Positions 24,043 to 51,552 of a stretch of DNA of 64,000 nt are shown here, in pieces. The DNA is from Acetomicrobium hydrogeniformans (GTDB taxonomy: Bacteria; Synergistota; Synergistia; Synergistales; JAFGMB01): the NCBI GenBank assembly GCA_016841745.1, contig JAENYO010000003.1, positions 360,287 to 424,286 on the forward strand, written 5' to 3'. The notes beneath the pieces are model-generated. The model saw nothing but the letters and a program-made list of their open reading frames with translations. It was not told where the DNA came from and ran no database searches. A program made the position numbers and the translations under genes. Each line of letters starts with the position of its first letter. Positions within the stretch are counted from its first letter, which is position 1.

Positions 24043-25596
24043 TTATGATGCCTTAGCTATTTCAAGGTCTATACCCCGAGCTGCAGCCAGCTGGAACAGT
24101 CTGTTAACAGCATTGATATACGCCTTTATGCTGGCTTCGACTATATCTGTGCTTGCACCCCTTCCCTGGGAAACAAGGCCCTGAAGTTCCAGGGCGATAT
24201 GGGCTTCTCCGATGGCATCAGACTTCTCGCTTGCGGCATCTATCTGATAACTTACCAGCTGGGTGTCCATATCGATTATCCTCCTGATGGCAGCGTAGGC
24301 TGCATCTATAGGCCCATTTCCTGTGGCGGCATCGCTTATTATGGTCTCTCCATTCCGGAGACTTATTCCTGCAGAGGCCTGCCCCCTTGTGGTGTGGACA
24401 TTGAAGTCTTTCAGAATGTATTTCCTTTCCGGGGTGATGGCAAGGATCTCATCAATTATGAGGATCTCTATGTCTTCTGTGCTTACAATTTCCTTCCTGT
24501 CGCAGAGTTCCTTGAAAAGAGAAAAGGCCTCTTTCATCTCATCCCGGGAAAGACGGTAACCCATATCTTCGACCTTCTCCCGGAAGGCGTGGTGTCCAGA
24601 ATGTTTTCCGAGGACGAGATCGGTCGAAGGAGCACCTACATCTTCAGGATTCATTATTTCGTAGGTAGATCTGTTGCAGAGCATGCCATGCTGGTGGATC
24701 CCCGCTTCATGCGCAAAGGCGTTAGAGCCCACTATCGCCTTGTTGGGCGGAACCGCGAAGCCGGTCAGTTTGGAAACCAGGTGGCTTGTTGAATATAACT
24801 GAGAGGTCTCGATCCGGGTCTGGACTCCAAAATGATCACTTCTTGTCCGAAGGCCCATCACGACCTCTTCCAGAGAAGCATTTCCAGCCCTTTCGCCTAT
24901 TCCGTTTATGGTGCACTCAACCTGCCGGACTCCATTTCTAATTGCCTCAAGGGAATTGATTACGGCCAGCCCAAGGTCGTTATGAGCGTGGACAGACCAG
25001 ATGATATCTTTCCCGCCGCCAGTTCTTTTAATGACCTCTCTTACCATCTCTGCAAATTCATGGGGTACAGCATATCCGACTGTATCCGGAATATTCAGGG
25101 TGGTTGCTCCACTTGCTATGGCTGCCTGAAAGATTTCAACCAGAAAATCTATATCTGTACGGCTCGCATCCTCAGCTGAAAATTCAACATCCCTTACAAT
25201 GGATCTGGCATGGGATACCCATTTCTGTACACTTTCCAGAACTTCCTTCCTTGTCATTTTCAGCTTATCCCTGAGGTGGATGTCACTGGTGGCGATAAAG
25301 GTATGGATCCTTGGTCTGGATGCATTTATAAGGGCTTTCCCTGCTGCGTCTACGTCATTTCCGGAACATCTTGCAAGACCTGTTATGACGGGTTCCCTTA
25401 TGGCTTCTGAAATTGCTTTTACTGCCTCCATGTCACCCTGTGAAGCTGCAGGGAATCCCGCCTCGACAATGTCCACCCTAAGTTTTTCCAGCTGTCTTGC
25501 GATCTGAATTTTTTCGGCCGTATTCAGATTGATCCTTGCTGCCTGTTCACCGTCTCTTAAAGTTGTATCAAAAATACGAACGTGATCCTGGTTCAT
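24043..25596 (-). CDS. leuA: 2-isopropylmalate synthase
   Basis: A 517-residue enzyme condensing 2-oxoisovalerate with acetyl-CoA, the committed step of leucine synthesis. [15 protein letters not shown] near residue 10 is the metal and substrate motif; [16 protein letters not shown] near 200 and [16 protein letters not shown] near 232 are the catalytic-barrel blocks; [11 protein letters not shown] supplies the later His residues. The C-terminal 120 residues form the LeuA allosteric domain, so leucine feedback is likely. It is the last gene of leuCDBA, 80 bases after leuB. Confidence 0.95.
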
Positions 25597-25676
25597 AGTT
25601 AGTTCCCCTTTCCTTCTGATGGAAACGATCCCCTTTTACCTGTTGTTACCAGAAATCTTATTCCCTTTGTTTATTG

Positions 25677-26810
25677 TCAAAGGATCCTTTCGAGTATTAA
25701 CTGACCAGCTTTTTCAGGGGTGGCGTTGCCTCCCAGTTCTACCGGCAGGTCTTCATCATCGGATTCCTGGAGGTAGGCTGATACGGCACTTTCGATGTCC
25801 CCTGCAGCTTCGTTTTCCCCAATTGAAGAGAGCATGAGAGATGCTGAAAGGATGGCAGCAACAGGATTTGCCATTCCTTTGCCTGCAATATCAGGGGCTG
25901 AACCATGAATAGGTTCATACATTCCCAGTCTGTCGCCTATATTGGCTCCAGCGGCGACTCCAAGTCCTCCTGCCAATCCTGCAAGGAGATCGCTGACGAT
26001 ATCTCCGAATAAATTGGGGCACAATATAACGCCGTATTCCCAGGGATTCCTTACGAGGTGATAGCAGAGGGCATCCACGTTCACCATCTTCATTTCCATT
26101 CCATGTTTTTCTGCTTCGTCTGATGCGACTTCTTCCCAGAAACCGTAAAGCTGGGGCATTGCATTTGATTTGGAGGCCAGGGTAAATGTTTGAAGTCCCC
26201 TGGAATCCGCTTCTCTGCATGCCCTTGCCGTTATCCTCCTTACGCCCTTTTCGCTGGCTATTCCAAGCTGAACAGCCGAAGGAGTGGAAGGTGTCAGTTT
26301 AAGGTCCAGTTTGCCTGAAAGCTCGTAGAGTCCTCTTTTTATGTTCATTTCATAGCTTATTGGCCCATCTGAAGCGCAACCCATACCCATATAAAGATCC
26401 TCCGTGTTTTCCCTGACCACCAGGATATCGAGGATCTTGTCTTCGGGCATCCTGATGGGAATGGGAACTCTCGGGTATTTTTTTGCCGGTCTGAGGTTCG
26501 TGTACATGTCAAAATGAAAGCGGAGGGTCAGTAGAATTCCCCTTTCGAGGATTCCCGGCTTGACCCTTGGATCTCCTATGGCACCAAGAAGAATGGCATC
26601 CATATCTTCCATTTCCTTTATGGCTGTTTCGGGAAGTATCTCTCCTGTTTTCAGATAGTGAGACGCTCCGAAGGGGTAGTCTTTCCATTCGATCTCAAAG
26701 CCGTGTTTTTTCCCTGAATGATCTGCTATTTTCCTGGCTTCTCCTATTACTTCCGGACCTATTCCGTCTCCTGCGATCTGGGCTATCTTATATTTTCCAG
26801 GGGATGTCAT
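25677..26810 (-). CDS. leuB: 3-isopropylmalate dehydrogenase
   Basis: A 377-residue NAD-dependent decarboxylating dehydrogenase of the isocitrate/isopropylmalate family. Markers are AGDGIGPEVIGEARK at the N-terminus, LLGAIGDPRV, the substrate-binding VVRENTEDLYMG, and the metal and NAD region NLFGDIVSDLLAGLAGGLG and EPIHGSAPDIAGKG. It starts seven bases after the leuD stop with AAAGGA upstream. The GHGSAPDI-type NAD loop fits NAD rather than NADP use. Confidence 0.94.
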   Translation of the reverse strand: MTSPGKYKIAQIAGDGIGPEVIGEARKIADHSGKKHGFEIEWKDYPFGASHYLKTGEILPETAIKEMEDMDAILLGAIGDPRVKPGILERGILLTLRFHFDMYTNLRPAKKYPRVPIPIRMPEDKILDILVVRENTEDLYMGMGCASDGPISYEMNIKRGLYELSGKLDLKLTPSTPSAVQLGIASEKGVRRITARACREADSRGLQTFTLASKSNAMPQLYGFWEEVASDEAEKHGMEMKMVNVDALCYHLVRNPWEYGVILCPNLFGDIVSDLLAGLAGGLGVAAGANIGDRLGMYEPIHGSAPDIAGKGMANPVAAILSASLMLSSIGENEAAGDIESAVSAYLQESDDEDLPVELGGNATPEKAGQLILERIL

Positions 26811-26816
26811 TTGAGA

Positions 26817-27329
26817 TTAGTCCTTTCCCTTGTGCTGTATTTTTTCTCTGACATAGGCCGTCAATCCGCCCGTCGCGATAAGCTGCTGGAGAAAGGGAGG
26901 AAAGGGAGAAGTGGAGTATTCCCTGTCCCTTGTTTCATTGGTAATGGTTCCTTTTGAAGGGTCAACCGAGATAATATCTCCCTGGATGATCTCCCTTGCT
27001 GCCTCTGGACAGACAAAAATGGGCAGACCTATGTTAATGGCATTCCGGAAAAAGATCCTGGCAAAGGATGAAGCTATAACACAGGATATCCCGGCACCCT
27101 TGAAGGCTATGGGAGCATGTTCACGGCTGGACCCGCATCCGAAATTCTCCCCTCCCACTATCACATCACCATTGTCAATCTTCTTTGTGAAACCGGGATC
27201 TATATCCTCCATGCAATGCTTCCCAAGTTCCTTTTCATCGTTGGTTACAAGATATCTGGCAGGGATGATAACATCGGTGTCTATATCATTTCCAAAGGTC
27301 CAAGCTTTTCCTCTGATCATACGGTTCAT
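26817..27329 (-). CDS. leuD: 3-isopropylmalate dehydratase small subunit
   Basis: A 170-residue swivel-domain subunit of isopropylmalate isomerase. GKAWTFGNDIDTDVIIPARYL and GGENFGCGSSREHAPIAFK are, respectively, the start and substrate-loop signatures when read in parts (WTFGNDIDTDVIIPARY; GCGSSREHAP). The compact length fits the archaeal/anaerobe type of subunit. Its ATG overlaps the leuC stop by four bases. Confidence 0.94.
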   Translation of the reverse strand: MNRMIRGKAWTFGNDIDTDVIIPARYLVTNDEKELGKHCMEDIDPGFTKKIDNGDVIVGGENFGCGSSREHAPIAFKGAGISCVIASSFARIFFRNAINIGLPIFVCPEAAREIIQGDIISVDPSKGTITNETRDREYSTSPFPPFLQQLIATGGLTAYVREKIQHKGKD

Positions 27330-28591
27330 TCCTGTTCCTCCATTTCTCTCGGGTCAGTTATACGTCCGGTTACTGCACTTGCTGCAGCAACAAGGGGGCT
27401 TGAAAGGTAGACTTCGCTTTCCGTATGCCCCATTCTTCCTATGAAATTACGGTTACTTGTAGAGACACATTTTTCTCCCGCAGCGAGAATACCCATATGC
27501 CCGCCAAGGCATGGGCCGCAGGTGGGTGTACATATGGCAGCACCAGCGGATGCAAAGATCTCGAGGTAGCCTCTCTTCATTGCCTCCGAATATACTTCGT
27601 AAGAAGCAGGGATGATCATGCATCTGACCCTTTCATGGATCTTTCTGCCCTTCAGAATGCTGGCCGCCATTTCTATATCCCTGAGTCTTCCGTTGGTACA
27701 TGACCCGATAAAGACCTGGTCTATCTCGACCTGTGAAAATTCTTTAGCCCGATGGACGTTTGAGGGTAAGTGAGGTGCTGCAACCAGCGGTTCCATACTC
27801 TCGACATCTATTTCCACTATCTGCTCGTATTGGGCGTCCTGGTCAGGATAGATGGGGTTGAAGCTTCGGGAAGCCCTCTTCTCTGCATAGGTAAGGATCT
27901 TTGCATCCGGAACAAAAAGGCCAGCCTTGGCACCGGTCTCTACTGCCATATTCGAGATGGAGAACCTGTCATCCAGGGGAAGGTTCCCAAGGGCTTCTCC
28001 GTGGAATTCAAGAGCCTTGTAACGGGCACCCTGAACACCGATCTTTCCCAGAAGAGCAAGGACCATATCCTTGCCTGTGATCCATTCAGGTCTTTCTCCA
28101 TGGAAAATGACCTTGATGGTCGGAGGTACCATGAGCCAGCTTTCTCCCGTTGCCCAGACTGCGGCAAGGTCAGTAGAACCTACCCCTGTGGAAAAGGCCC
28201 CAAGGGTTCCGCCGGTACATGTGTGGCTGTCTGCTCCCATAACTATATCTCCAGGAAGGATGTAGCCCTTTTCAGGAAGGAACGCATGTTCCACCCCGAC
28301 CCTTCCTACTTCCCAGTAAAGCATCTGCTGTTCCCTGGCGAATTTCCGCCCTTCCATGGCCTGCTGTGCCGATGCTATGTCCTTATTGGGGGTAAAATGA
28401 TCTGGAAGGATAGCACATCTTTCACTGTCAAATACCTTTTCTGCACCCATATCGCGGAAGGATCTTATGGCTGGCGGGGCTGTTATGTCATTGGCGAAAG
28501 CGAAATCCACCTTCACCTGGCAGATATTCCCTATATCGGCCTTGTCGTCTGAATGTGCTTCAATTATTGCCTGTGCAAGCGTTTTGCCCAT
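27326..28591 (-). CDS. leuC: 3-isopropylmalate dehydratase large subunit
   Basis: A 421-residue aconitase-fold [4Fe-4S] subunit of isopropylmalate isomerase. Cluster Cys residues are seen in GSCTNGRLRD near 300 and PTCGPCLGGHMG near 360; ADSHTCTGGTLGAFSTGVGS near 125 is the first Cys block. Its length matches the short LeuC/HacA-type clade found in anaerobes and archaea. It is the first gene of leuCDBA and lies behind a leader-peptide attenuator, which supports leucine rather than homoaconitate metabolism. Confidence 0.94.
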   Translation of the reverse strand: MGKTLAQAIIEAHSDDKADIGNICQVKVDFAFANDITAPPAIRSFRDMGAEKVFDSERCAILPDHFTPNKDIASAQQAMEGRKFAREQQMLYWEVGRVGVEHAFLPEKGYILPGDIVMGADSHTCTGGTLGAFSTGVGSTDLAAVWATGESWLMVPPTIKVIFHGERPEWITGKDMVLALLGKIGVQGARYKALEFHGEALGNLPLDDRFSISNMAVETGAKAGLFVPDAKILTYAEKRASRSFNPIYPDQDAQYEQIVEIDVESMEPLVAAPHLPSNVHRAKEFSQVEIDQVFIGSCTNGRLRDIEMAASILKGRKIHERVRCMIIPASYEVYSEAMKRGYLEIFASAGAAICTPTCGPCLGGHMGILAAGEKCVSTSNRNFIGRMGHTESEVYLSSPLVAAASAVTGRITDPREMEEQE

Positions 28592-28663: not shown

Positions 28664-28709
28664 CAAAAAAATAAAAAAAGGCCGGAACCCCATAAACGGG
28701 ATTCCGGCC
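28664..28709 (-). terminator. Attenuator terminator of the leu operon
   Basis: On the minus strand GGCCGGAATCCC pairs with GGGGTTCCGGCC around a 6-base loop (28680-28709) and is followed by a long T-rich run. It lies between the leader peptide and leuC, so it acts as the attenuator rather than an operon end. Confidence 0.9.
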
Positions 28710-28730
28710 CTGGAATTAGGCAGTCACAGA

Positions 28731-28820
28731 CTACCTGTAACTCCGGGGAGGAGACCCGCAGTGATCGAGTAGCCCTAGTAGATTGAAGGAATAAACAACA
28801 GTACTGATATTACTTTTCAC
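28731..28820 (-). CDS. leuL: leu operon leader peptide
   Basis: A 29-residue frame starting at GTG 28820 with AAAGGAGGTG about six bases upstream and ending at TAG 28731-28733. Codons 14-18 read CTA CTA GGG CTA CTC, four leucines in five codons, three of them the less common CTA. This is the usual design of a leucine leader peptide: stalling for lack of charged Leu-tRNA would favour read-through of the terminator at 28664-28709. A short hairpin (AGTTACAG / CTGTGACT) covers the stop region and may be part of the switch. Confidence 0.87.
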   Translation of the reverse strand: MKSNISTVVYSFNLLGLLDHCGSPPRSYR

Positions 28821-28867: not shown

Positions 28868-28896
28868 ATAATACAATGATATCCTTGATCTGTCAA
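28868..28896 (-). promoter_or_regulatory. Promoter of the leu operon
   Basis: On the minus strand TTGACA (28891-28896), 17-base spacer, TATTAT (28868-28873). It lies just upstream of the leader peptide. Confidence 0.85.
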
Positions 28897-28998: not shown

Positions 28999-29802
28999 TT
29001 AATTTACCTTTAGAGAAACATCTCCCAGGGTGCTGTAAGAGGCCCTGTATGTTCCCCTCTGCAGGGGCATGGGCAGAACGAAAGTTCCAGAAGATATAAC
29101 CATTCCTCTGCTTAGAAACTTGCCTTTTCCGTCAAGTTTCCTGATAAGCCATTTGACAGCCTCCAGGGGATTTCCCAGGACTTCTGAAGAATGTCCCTCT
29201 GCAATCTTTTTATCATTCAGGTACAGTTTCAGATCAATATTACCAAGTTCTTCGTATGACAGTCTTTTCCTTTTTATCCCCGCTACGACTTTTCCAGCTA
29301 CGGCATTATCAGCAGCTATTGTGCCAAGGGAAAGTTTGGGGAACCAGTCCAAAAAGCGTGAGTCAGGTATTTCCAGACCTGCTGCGACGGAAATCATACC
29401 AGGCAGGTCTTCGTCAGCGACAGGATGATGTATGTCTTCCTCAATGAAAAACATCAGCTCGGTTTCTATAAGCGGTTCCGACATATCAGACAGGGTTATG
29501 ACGCCGTCTGACATGTTGGAGTCTGTCAATGTTCCGTAAGCGGGCTCATTTGCTCCGAACCAGCCCTGGGTTTCGGGGCTGGTCAGGCTGATCTTGTATC
29601 CCCTTAAATGTTCCTTCTTATGGGAGATCTTTCTTTTCGTCACAAGATCCTGTACAAGGTATCCGGTTTCCAGTTCAAATCTCATTCTCTCTGCAGTATC
29701 TTTGTCCAGCCCGGTACCGCTGATAGATGCTGAATAAAGGGTTTCAACTGCTTTATTTACCATCGCGGAAAGCTCTCTCTCTCGTTTCTCTTCATTTGTC
29801 AT
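28999..29802 (-). CDS. 2-keto-4-pentenoate hydratase family protein (MhpD-like)
   Basis: A 267-residue member of the 2-oxopent-4-enoate hydratase / oxalocrotonate decarboxylase family. Family blocks are visible: GYKISLTSPETQGWFG near 68, EPAYGTLTDSNM, EPLIETELMFFIEEDI with metal-binding Glu residues near 113, AAGLEIPDSRFLDW near 142, and EVLGNPLEAVKWLIRKL near 212. In known cases the enzymes act on 2-oxo acids from meta-cleavage pathways, but no aromatic catabolism genes are near. Instead the gene sits behind an Ile/Val/Leu-rich leader peptide and attenuator and beside the leu operon, so a link to branched-chain 2-oxo acids is possible. Confidence 0.85.
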   Translation of the reverse strand: MTNEEKRERELSAMVNKAVETLYSASISGTGLDKDTAERMRFELETGYLVQDLVTKRKISHKKEHLRGYKISLTSPETQGWFGANEPAYGTLTDSNMSDGVITLSDMSEPLIETELMFFIEEDIHHPVADEDLPGMISVAAGLEIPDSRFLDWFPKLSLGTIAADNAVAGKVVAGIKRKRLSYEELGNIDLKLYLNDKKIAEGHSSEVLGNPLEAVKWLIRKLDGKGKFLSRGMVISSGTFVLPMPLQRGTYRASYSTLGDVSLKVN

Positions 29803-29847
29803 CTTTATTCAGCCTTGACAAGTAATTCGTAAACGTAAAAAAATGCA

Positions 29848-29988
29848 TTAACGATATCCTTCAAAGGGGCCCCTCCAGCGGACTTCCAGAATTCCCTCTG
29901 AATTGAACATTTCAAAGGAGTCCATAGCTTCGTAAACCCTCATCATCTTTTCTGACTGCTTCTTTCCCATTTTTTCCATTTTATCCAT
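29848..29988 (-). CDS. Met-rich 46-residue hypothetical protein
   Basis: A short frame between the ilv-type attenuator and the hydratase gene, starting at ATG 29988 with GGGAG/AGGG upstream and stopping 45 bases before the hydratase. Seven of 46 residues are Met, all in the first 27. No signal or membrane segment. No family was recognised; it could also be a remnant of a longer gene. Confidence 0.55.
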   Translation of the reverse strand: MDKMEKMGKKQSEKMMRVYEAMDSFEMFNSEGILEVRWRGPFEGYR

Positions 29989-30084
29989 AGTCCCTATCTC
30001 CCTTCTCATTTAACTGACATTAAAATTATTTTTGCACGTTTAACCCTGAGGTATCCCGGGGCTATTTCCCTTTGATGGTTTTTT

Positions 30085-30129
30085 AAAAACAAAAAAAGGC
30101 CGGGAACCGCTTAAAAGCGGATCCCGGCC
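30085..30129 (-). terminator. Attenuator terminator upstream of the hydratase unit
   Basis: On the minus strand GGCCGGGA and TCCCGGCC arms (30098-30129) enclose a smaller CCGC/GCGG pair and are followed by a T-rich run. It lies between the BCAA-rich leader peptide and the 46-residue gene, and closely resembles the leu attenuator in sequence. Confidence 0.9.
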
Positions 30130-30150
30130 CTGGTTTCTGTGTAAAGGTAA

Positions 30151-30249
30151 TTAAATACCGATCACACCAGGAGGGGATCCGCTGCTAATAATTAGGACTA
30201 TAATTATGGAAACAAGAGACTGTAGAACGACATTTTTAATTAGCTTCAT
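30151..30249 (-). CDS. ilv-type leader peptide (Ile/Val/Leu-rich)
   Basis: A 32-residue frame from ATG 30249 (AGGAGGG upstream) to TAA 30151. Seventeen residues are branched-chain: eight Ile, five Val and four Leu, with the block VSIIIVLII in the middle. Composition and position ahead of a strong terminator match leader peptides of ilv operons in other bacteria. The hydrophobic block could also be read as a membrane helix, but promoter, peptide and terminator together argue for attenuation. Confidence 0.85.
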   Translation of the reverse strand: MKLIKNVVLQSLVSIIIVLIISSGSPPGVIGI

Positions 30250-30293
30250 TTCGAACCCTCCTCTGTGTCTGAATTGTATAAATATTGCGTCAC

Positions 30294-30322
30294 ATTGTAT
30301 TGTGGATTACCTTATATGTCAA
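30294..30322 (-). promoter_or_regulatory. Promoter of the attenuated hydratase unit
   Basis: On the minus strand TTGACA (30317-30322), 17-base spacer, TACAAT (30294-30299), about 45 bases before the leader ATG. Confidence 0.85.
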
Positions 30323-51391: not shown

Positions 51392-51469
51392 GTATATATG
51401 ATCATAGAGTAATAAATATCTGTACACTTATGTAGTAATCTTTCTATGACAACGGTAGCTTTAAATACT

Positions 51470-51552
51470 TCGAAAAGGCAAAACCGTCGAGAGGCGGTGA
51501 CGCAAAGCCACGGGTCTAAGTCCAGAGGAATAGATAGCCGGGTTGCCGAAAA
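51470..51552 (+). ncRNA. Cyclic-di-GMP-I riboswitch (GEMM-I)
   Basis: The conserved skeleton is clear: GGCAAAACCG, then GGTGACGCAAAGCCACGGG, then GTCTAAG, and the closing AGATAGCCGGGTTGCCG. GGCAA (51477-51481) and TTGCC (51543-51547) form the base stem, and the GACGCAAAGCCACGGGTCTA core is near-identical to GEMM-I consensus. It lies upstream of a diguanylate cyclase gene and is followed by an intrinsic terminator. GCCGAA (51545-51550) can pair with TTCGGC (51579-51584) in the terminator's left arm, which suggests a ligand-controlled choice. Confidence 0.92.

Follow-up and report, generated by a model that had tools for sequence, protein, structure and literature searches.

Organisation of the locus

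The locus lies on the minus strand of a 64,000-nucleotide stretch of Acetomicrobium hydrogeniformans DNA (contig JAENYO010000003.1), referred to here as the window. In the direction of transcription, the order is promoter, leader, terminator, an ORF of 46 amino acids and a hydratase gene, followed by the promoter, leader and terminator of the leu genes and by leuC, leuD, leuB and leuA.

30294..30322, minus strand: sigma-70-type promoter TTGACA-17-TACAAT, 11 of 12 consensus matches
30256..30262, minus strand: AGGAGGG, ribosome binding site of the leader, with predicted pairing (MFE and centroid) to CCCUCCU in the leader GSPPG codons, a 1:2 arm
30151..30249, minus strand: leader peptide ORF, 32 amino acids with C-terminal GSPPG, peptide MKLIKNVVLQSLVSIIIVLIISSGSPPGVIGI; similar leaders occur at other units
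30168..30183, minus strand: antiterminator segment GCGGATCCCCTCCTGG inside the leader ORF, predicted to form a duplex with the terminator 5′ arm
about 30091..30132, minus strand: attenuator terminator hairpin and T run, -29.2 kcal/mol
29848..29988, minus strand: RGPFEG small protein, 46 amino acids, ending RWRGPFEGYR-stop, putative conserved target of the attenuator
28999..29802, minus strand: MhpD-like 2-oxo acid hydratase/decarboxylase-family enzyme, 267 amino acids, second cistron, lineage-specific
28868..28896, minus strand: leu promoter TTGACA-17-TATTAT (promoter scan)
28731..28820, minus strand: leu leader peptide, 29 amino acids, matched by RNA model R1 at C14:388959-389073
28678..28711, minus strand: leu attenuator terminator (terminator scan)
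24043..28591, minus strand: leuC (28591-27326), leuD (27329-26817), leuB (26810-25677) and leuA (25596-24043)

Ile, Val and Leu account for 17 of the 32 residues of the leader (8 I, 4 L, 5 V). The first-pass annotation had described a consensus promoter, this branched-chain-rich leader, a terminator resembling that of leu, a 46-residue gene and an MhpD-like hydratase, and each of these was recovered. Since promoter-like matches of such quality are not rare in themselves (4 in the region, with 3.4 expected by shuffling), TTGACA-17-TACAAT draws its weight from its position. The terminator arms of the module (GGGCCGGGATCCGC) and of leu (GGGCCGGAATCCCG) are visibly alike in sequence; a simple terminator scan listed the leu hairpin, while the module hairpin, which has an internal mismatch, was absent from its list. 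The RNA from leader to terminator folded at -59.4 kcal/mol, as against -40.1 ± 4.1 for shuffled sequences (z -4.75). The promoter and terminator scans returned neither a minus-strand promoter nor a terminator between the small ORF and the hydratase gene, which makes their co-transcription likely. Elsewhere in the window, a c-di-GMP-I-GGC riboswitch was found at 51468-51551 on the plus strand (Rfam, 71.2 bits).

The RGPFEG family of small proteins

In the Synergistota set of 185 genomes, 180 of which form the order subset, the tail RGPFEG-x-R-stop was identified at 33 places in 31 genomes (tail profile, E ≤ 3.2e-9), and these carriers span five families. Beyond these, profile values begin at 3.8e-4, where the matches are motif copies within proteins already counted, or chance; a weak match in G056 was left out of the counts. 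Genome G001, the nearest relative, has two small ORFs in tandem, which were taken as one, giving 32 units; like the window ORF, both end in RGPFEGYR-stop. A second copy in the A. hydrogeniformans genome, at C3:137178, has its own branched-chain amino acid (BCAA) leader and terminator, and the next long ORF is convergent. Proteins with two RGPFEG motifs were found in ten carrier genomes of three genera and additionally in G070, and six genomes of family f4 have a variant in which GPFVG is combined with RGPFEG. Four weak profile hits in f9 (L086-L089) were frames of another protein, and L075 (G006), L076 (G017), L077 and L079 were without such a tail or without a BCAA leader; none of these was counted.

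A degenerate DNA pattern for RGPFEGYR-stop was located in 8 stretches of the GTDB species contigs, all in Synergistota records. About 4 such stretches would be expected by chance with even base use, yet all 8 had a leader and a terminator upstream.

The 33 proteins are 39–77 amino acids long (script-chosen starts), with a conserved tail of 8 residues. The pooled in-frame pN/pS was 0.29 (16 pairs; 0.06–0.73 for single pairs), as against values of 1.9 and 1.6 for the two alternative frames, and the motif codons vary synonymously: purifying selection acts on the small proteins. Their combined Ile, Leu and Val content is 183 of 1900 residues (9.6%), when that of 87 reference ORFs of at least 150 amino acids, drawn from five stretches of the A. 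hydrogeniformans genome, is 25.0 ± 4.0%, none being as low. Phe, Trp, Tyr and Met are enriched or not depleted, and the exceptions to BCAA depletion are the g21 proteins of G042 and G066 (21–22%). Such depletion is what would be expected if the small protein were made during BCAA starvation. A low content of the cognate amino acid in amino acid synthesis enzymes is described as a guard against starvation in PMC4209129.

No match to the small proteins was obtained in Pfam, NCBIfam or PDB, and a search of solved structures with the small-protein profile gave nothing at E up to 10. The AlphaFold model comprised a low-confidence helix and an unstructured tail (pLDDT 59.4), with no confident fold. 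The RGPFEG-x-R tail was also likened to the substrate loop of glutamate dehydrogenase; the dehydrogenases of A. hydrogeniformans itself read GPYKGGVRY and GPSKGGVRF, and this weak likeness was dropped. Searches of the open-licence literature returned no paper on RGPFEGYR and, among the matches listed, none on the module or on such attenuators in Synergistota; the searched passages of PMC2965389 had no text on Synergistetes and those of PMC8632094 one passing mention. The family is apparently undescribed, and no name for it was found.

Conservation of the attenuator

A BCAA leader and a terminator were detected by script at 31 of the 32 units, the remaining one (L045) having the leader and no T run of five; putative leader ORFs with clustered Ile, Val and Leu codons are present at all 32. 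Codons of the GSPPG region can pair with the 5′ arm of the terminator in 31 of 31 units. For the window unit, none of 200 shuffled leaders gave an equally stable antiterminator duplex; for 21 of the 31 units, no more than 2 of the 200 did. The antiterminators of the other ten are weaker: five units were equalled by 5–10 of 200 shuffles, and five, all of family f4, by 11–38. As families, f4 is hardly above shuffles (8–38/200) and most of f10 is moderate (5–10/200).

When the window antiterminator was projected onto the alignment of 31 units, 90.0% of the cells were paired, with 63% at most when it was slid, and 49 cells were changed on both sides of the duplex, as against 18.7 ± 4.6 in shuffles. 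The number of pairs changed on both sides (7, reached by 66 of 500 shuffles) and the number of further pair types in the antiterminator were not above shuffles. GSPPG would thus be conserved because of RNA pairing and not because of a function of the peptide. In the window, the same codons may plausibly pair with the ribosome binding site of the leader as well, forming the 1:2 arm.

The predicted elements, i.e. a leader ORF, a terminator ahead of the target (31/32) and a mutually exclusive antiterminator within the leader, are those of an attenuator which, as far as sequence tells, is real and works like known ones. A pattern of GSPPG plus terminator matched the module site and one other place in the A. 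hydrogeniformans genome, and the covariance model described below was the better tool.

The hydratase

The hydratase matched Escherichia coli MhpD (1sv6) at 7e-21, with residues 45–249 aligned. Its K, ETE and LE align with K, EAE and LE of MhpD, and this Lys and the E-x-E...E positions are presumably those of the catalytic core of the MhpD family. The enzyme is homologous over the core to the MhpD/2-oxopent-4-enoate hydratase family, yet it falls far below all NCBIfam equivalog cut-offs (best 90 vs 408.8 bits).

According to the first-pass annotation, an ilv-type leader controls this hydratase. The attenuator itself and a shared transcript stood up: in A. hydrogeniformans and G001 the hydratase gene is probably on the attenuator transcript, and G001 keeps the order of a Mut7-C-like gene (by eye), BCAA leader, small ORFs, hydratase and leuC, the two hydratases being 48% identical and located beside leu in both genomes. 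A different reading would make the hydratase the true object of regulation, with a role in the metabolism of branched-chain or unsaturated 2-oxo acids, and would reduce the small ORF to a minor upstream ORF; this conserved order and the absence of an intervening promoter or terminator fit it. That the leader exists for the hydratase is nevertheless unlikely, as the hydratase adjoins the module in only 2 of the 32 units and the small ORF is present in all, two of them standing in tandem ahead of the G001 hydratase. The remaining homologs in the 61 relatives searched sit elsewhere, away from the module; these relatives were taken from the search of genomes, and a search of the GTDB contig collection returned none. 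By its distribution, the conserved target of the attenuator is the RGPFEG small ORF, not the hydratase, which would be a lineage-specific passenger behind the small ORF and may share its control.

Genes behind the small ORF

In two units, the small ORF is followed by the hydratase. All 6 f10 units have an AddB-like gene in this place (confirmed by Pfam for one of them), the two g21 units have a FAD-dependent oxidoreductase that lies past a terminator, and the f8 units vary. For the eight f3 units, 10 kb were inspected: in five, a long ORF of convergent orientation comes next, within 110 nt, and in the remaining three the automatic ORF choice fell on overlapping frames. At least 10 of the 33 copies have an evident stem with a T run shortly downstream of the small-ORF stop codon. 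The downstream gene is, as a whole, not conserved across units.

These arrangements bear on the possibility that the small ORF encodes a second cis-acting peptide, with RGPFEG-x-R-stop stalling the terminating ribosome in the manner of TnaC and thereby setting downstream expression. The position of the tail relative to the stop codon is fixed in 33 of 33 copies, and a same-strand gene lies close behind in f1 and f10, as addB does throughout f10, all of which would suit such an arrest. The terminators and convergent genes behind many copies, and the lack of a conserved gene to be regulated, argue against it, as do the two-motif proteins, which hold the same motif about 30 residues inside the chain; cis action is an unlikely role in general, though cis effects may be at work in f10. 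A variable N-terminal part, a conserved C-terminal peptide and the tandem and double copies are also features of precursors of secreted or modified peptides. With no conserved neighbour, the units are not accompanied by any conserved gene for modification, proteolysis or export, and this, together with the lack of PDB or family matches, renders a peptide precursor improbable.

Among other neighbours, liv-type transporter genes (by sequence look) are located 3–5 kb from the eight f3 units, which may or may not matter; one permease was checked (PF02653, 1.4e-40). In L037-L040 and L044-L049, neighbours recur within a family and not between families: f8 has genes judged by eye to be of protease and rhomboid-like type, and f10 has AddBA. 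A conserved protein of 91–92 amino acids, of no known Pfam family, is encoded near f3/f4 RGPFEG units (L115, L120, L122, L124).

Relation to branched-chain amino acid synthesis

On contig C8 of A. hydrogeniformans, a separate Ile leader/attenuator precedes ilvN-like, ilvC and ilvB genes, of which ilvN and ilvB were assigned from the look of their sequence. This Ile leader and its terminator are present in two identical 173-nt copies spaced 240 nt apart (L112:8338-8750, G000:C8:513337-513749); the second copy runs into N, and the duplication may have arisen in assembly.

Ketol-acid reductoisomerase (KARI, ilvC) was found in 129 of the 180 genomes of the order. Of the 31 carriers, 21 have it and ten are without detectable ilvC. 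Among these ten, G042 and G066 each consist of a single contig and are 99% complete. The LeuA dimer domain is absent from G066 and from five further ilvC-less carriers, some of them incomplete, and is present behind its own leader in G042. Most ilvC-bearing genomes are without the RGPFEG module. The module thus has no fixed link with BCAA synthesis, as carriers without ilvC exist, near-complete G042 and G066 among them. No BCAA biosynthesis gene directly follows the module leader, as would be the case for an ilv or leu operon leader, and leu has its own promoter and leader.

Leaders of ilv genes are of mixed Ile/Val/Leu composition, as is that of the module, and the first-pass annotation had offered a remnant of lost ilv genes as one explanation; this is highly improbable, since the ilv genes persist behind their own leader, no ilv genes were seen behind the module leader or between it and the small ORF in any of the 32 units, and leader and antiterminator have been maintained with compensatory changes.

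Other candidate attenuators and a possible aromatic module

A covariance model built from 31 leaders matched 125 of the 180 genomes of the order at E ≤ 0.01 and gave 14 full-length matches in A. hydrogeniformans at E ≤ 4.3e-5. Named by eye from leader and neighbour, the genes behind these 14 include ilv, leu, panB (Val leader), an aro operon (Phe leader) and a TRAP transporter (BCAA leader), and a further match has a Met/Thr-containing leader. The attenuator before the TRAP transporter (L201, G000:C2:16106-16227) is without an RGPFEG ORF, and its terminator is very like that of the G001 module. A Met-rich leader before a MetN-like transporter was also noted by eye (L228). Many amino-acid genes of the order seem to share one attenuator design, with a GSPPG-like leader end and a GGCCGGG-type terminator.

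At C14:72507-72970 of the same genome (L205:1007-1471), an aromatic leader (YYFYYWF) and a terminator precede two small ORFs of 55 and 35 amino acids, and no long gene on the same strand follows closely. The same layout was found in G001 (C163, L217), with leader YYFYFWF; over both genomes, the small ORFs measure 55 and 35–36 amino acids. The first ORFs of the two genomes are 49% identical, with a pN/pS of 0.51, and gave no convincing match in any other of the 180 genomes; the tails are WWKY/WWRY (WW[KR]Y) and LPCLR. The locus looks like a second attenuator-driven small-protein module. Its proteins are rich in aromatic residues (9 and 11 of 55), and depletion of the sensed amino acids is therefore not a general rule.

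Proposed mechanism and relation to known systems

The most probable reading, held with fair though not full confidence, is that the locus is a ribosome-mediated attenuator whose conserved output is the RGPFEG protein, made under BCAA starvation and most likely acting in trans through its tail, with the hydratase as a passenger. The leader, the terminator, the covarying antiterminator, coding selection, the spread of the family and the absence of a conserved downstream gene form its basis; starvation induction, action in trans and docking by the tail are what we infer from these. With charged Ile-, Val- and Leu-tRNAs, the ribosome would pass through the leader and the terminator would form. With these tRNAs uncharged, it would stall at Ile, Val and Leu codons, letting the GSPPG codons pair with the 5′ arm of the terminator and allowing read-through into the small ORF. 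The protein, itself poor in Ile, Leu and Val, would then be produced under BCAA starvation and act in trans, its RGPFEG-x-R tail docking on a partner. In the lineage of A. hydrogeniformans, the hydratase would have been placed behind the small ORF and be co-expressed as a passenger.

Attenuators are textbook operon switches. The present one shares with the enterobacterial and actinobacterial ilv/leu attenuators a leader rich in the sensed residues and an alternative antiterminator and terminator, and the same logic is described for his genes in PMC9413887. Its target, by contrast, is a small protein that frequently has a transcript to itself, and it occurs as well where ilvC or leuA could not be detected. 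In Bacillus, anti-TRAP (rtpA/yczA) is likewise a small regulator induced by uncharged tRNA via a leader RNA (PMC11255114), but its leader is a T-box sensing Trp, and it is a zinc protein with the known target TRAP; the small proteins, having no Pfam, NCBIfam or PDB match, gave no sign of belonging with it. By analogy, anti-TRAP is the nearest precedent in logic, not a relative. The peptide peTrpL of Sinorhizobium is a short product of an attenuator locus with a role in trans (PMC7298713), but there the acting peptide is the leader itself, when here it would be encoded by a separate ORF behind the terminator.

A more general proposal is put forward tentatively, at somewhat less than even confidence: in Synergistales, one attenuator design may front amino-acid-specific small trans-acting proteins (BCAA to RGPFEG, aromatic to WW[KR]Y and LPCLR) that signal tRNA charging to other machinery, likely BCAA auxotrophs included. 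What has been kept, with compensatory base changes and across five families, is an attenuator driving a stand-alone small protein whether ilvC is present or absent. The RGPFEG proteins, with their short conserved tail, are small enough for direct testing. If they act in trans, a sensor of tRNA charging would here be wired to a peptide regulator, with a logic like that of anti-TRAP reached by another route.
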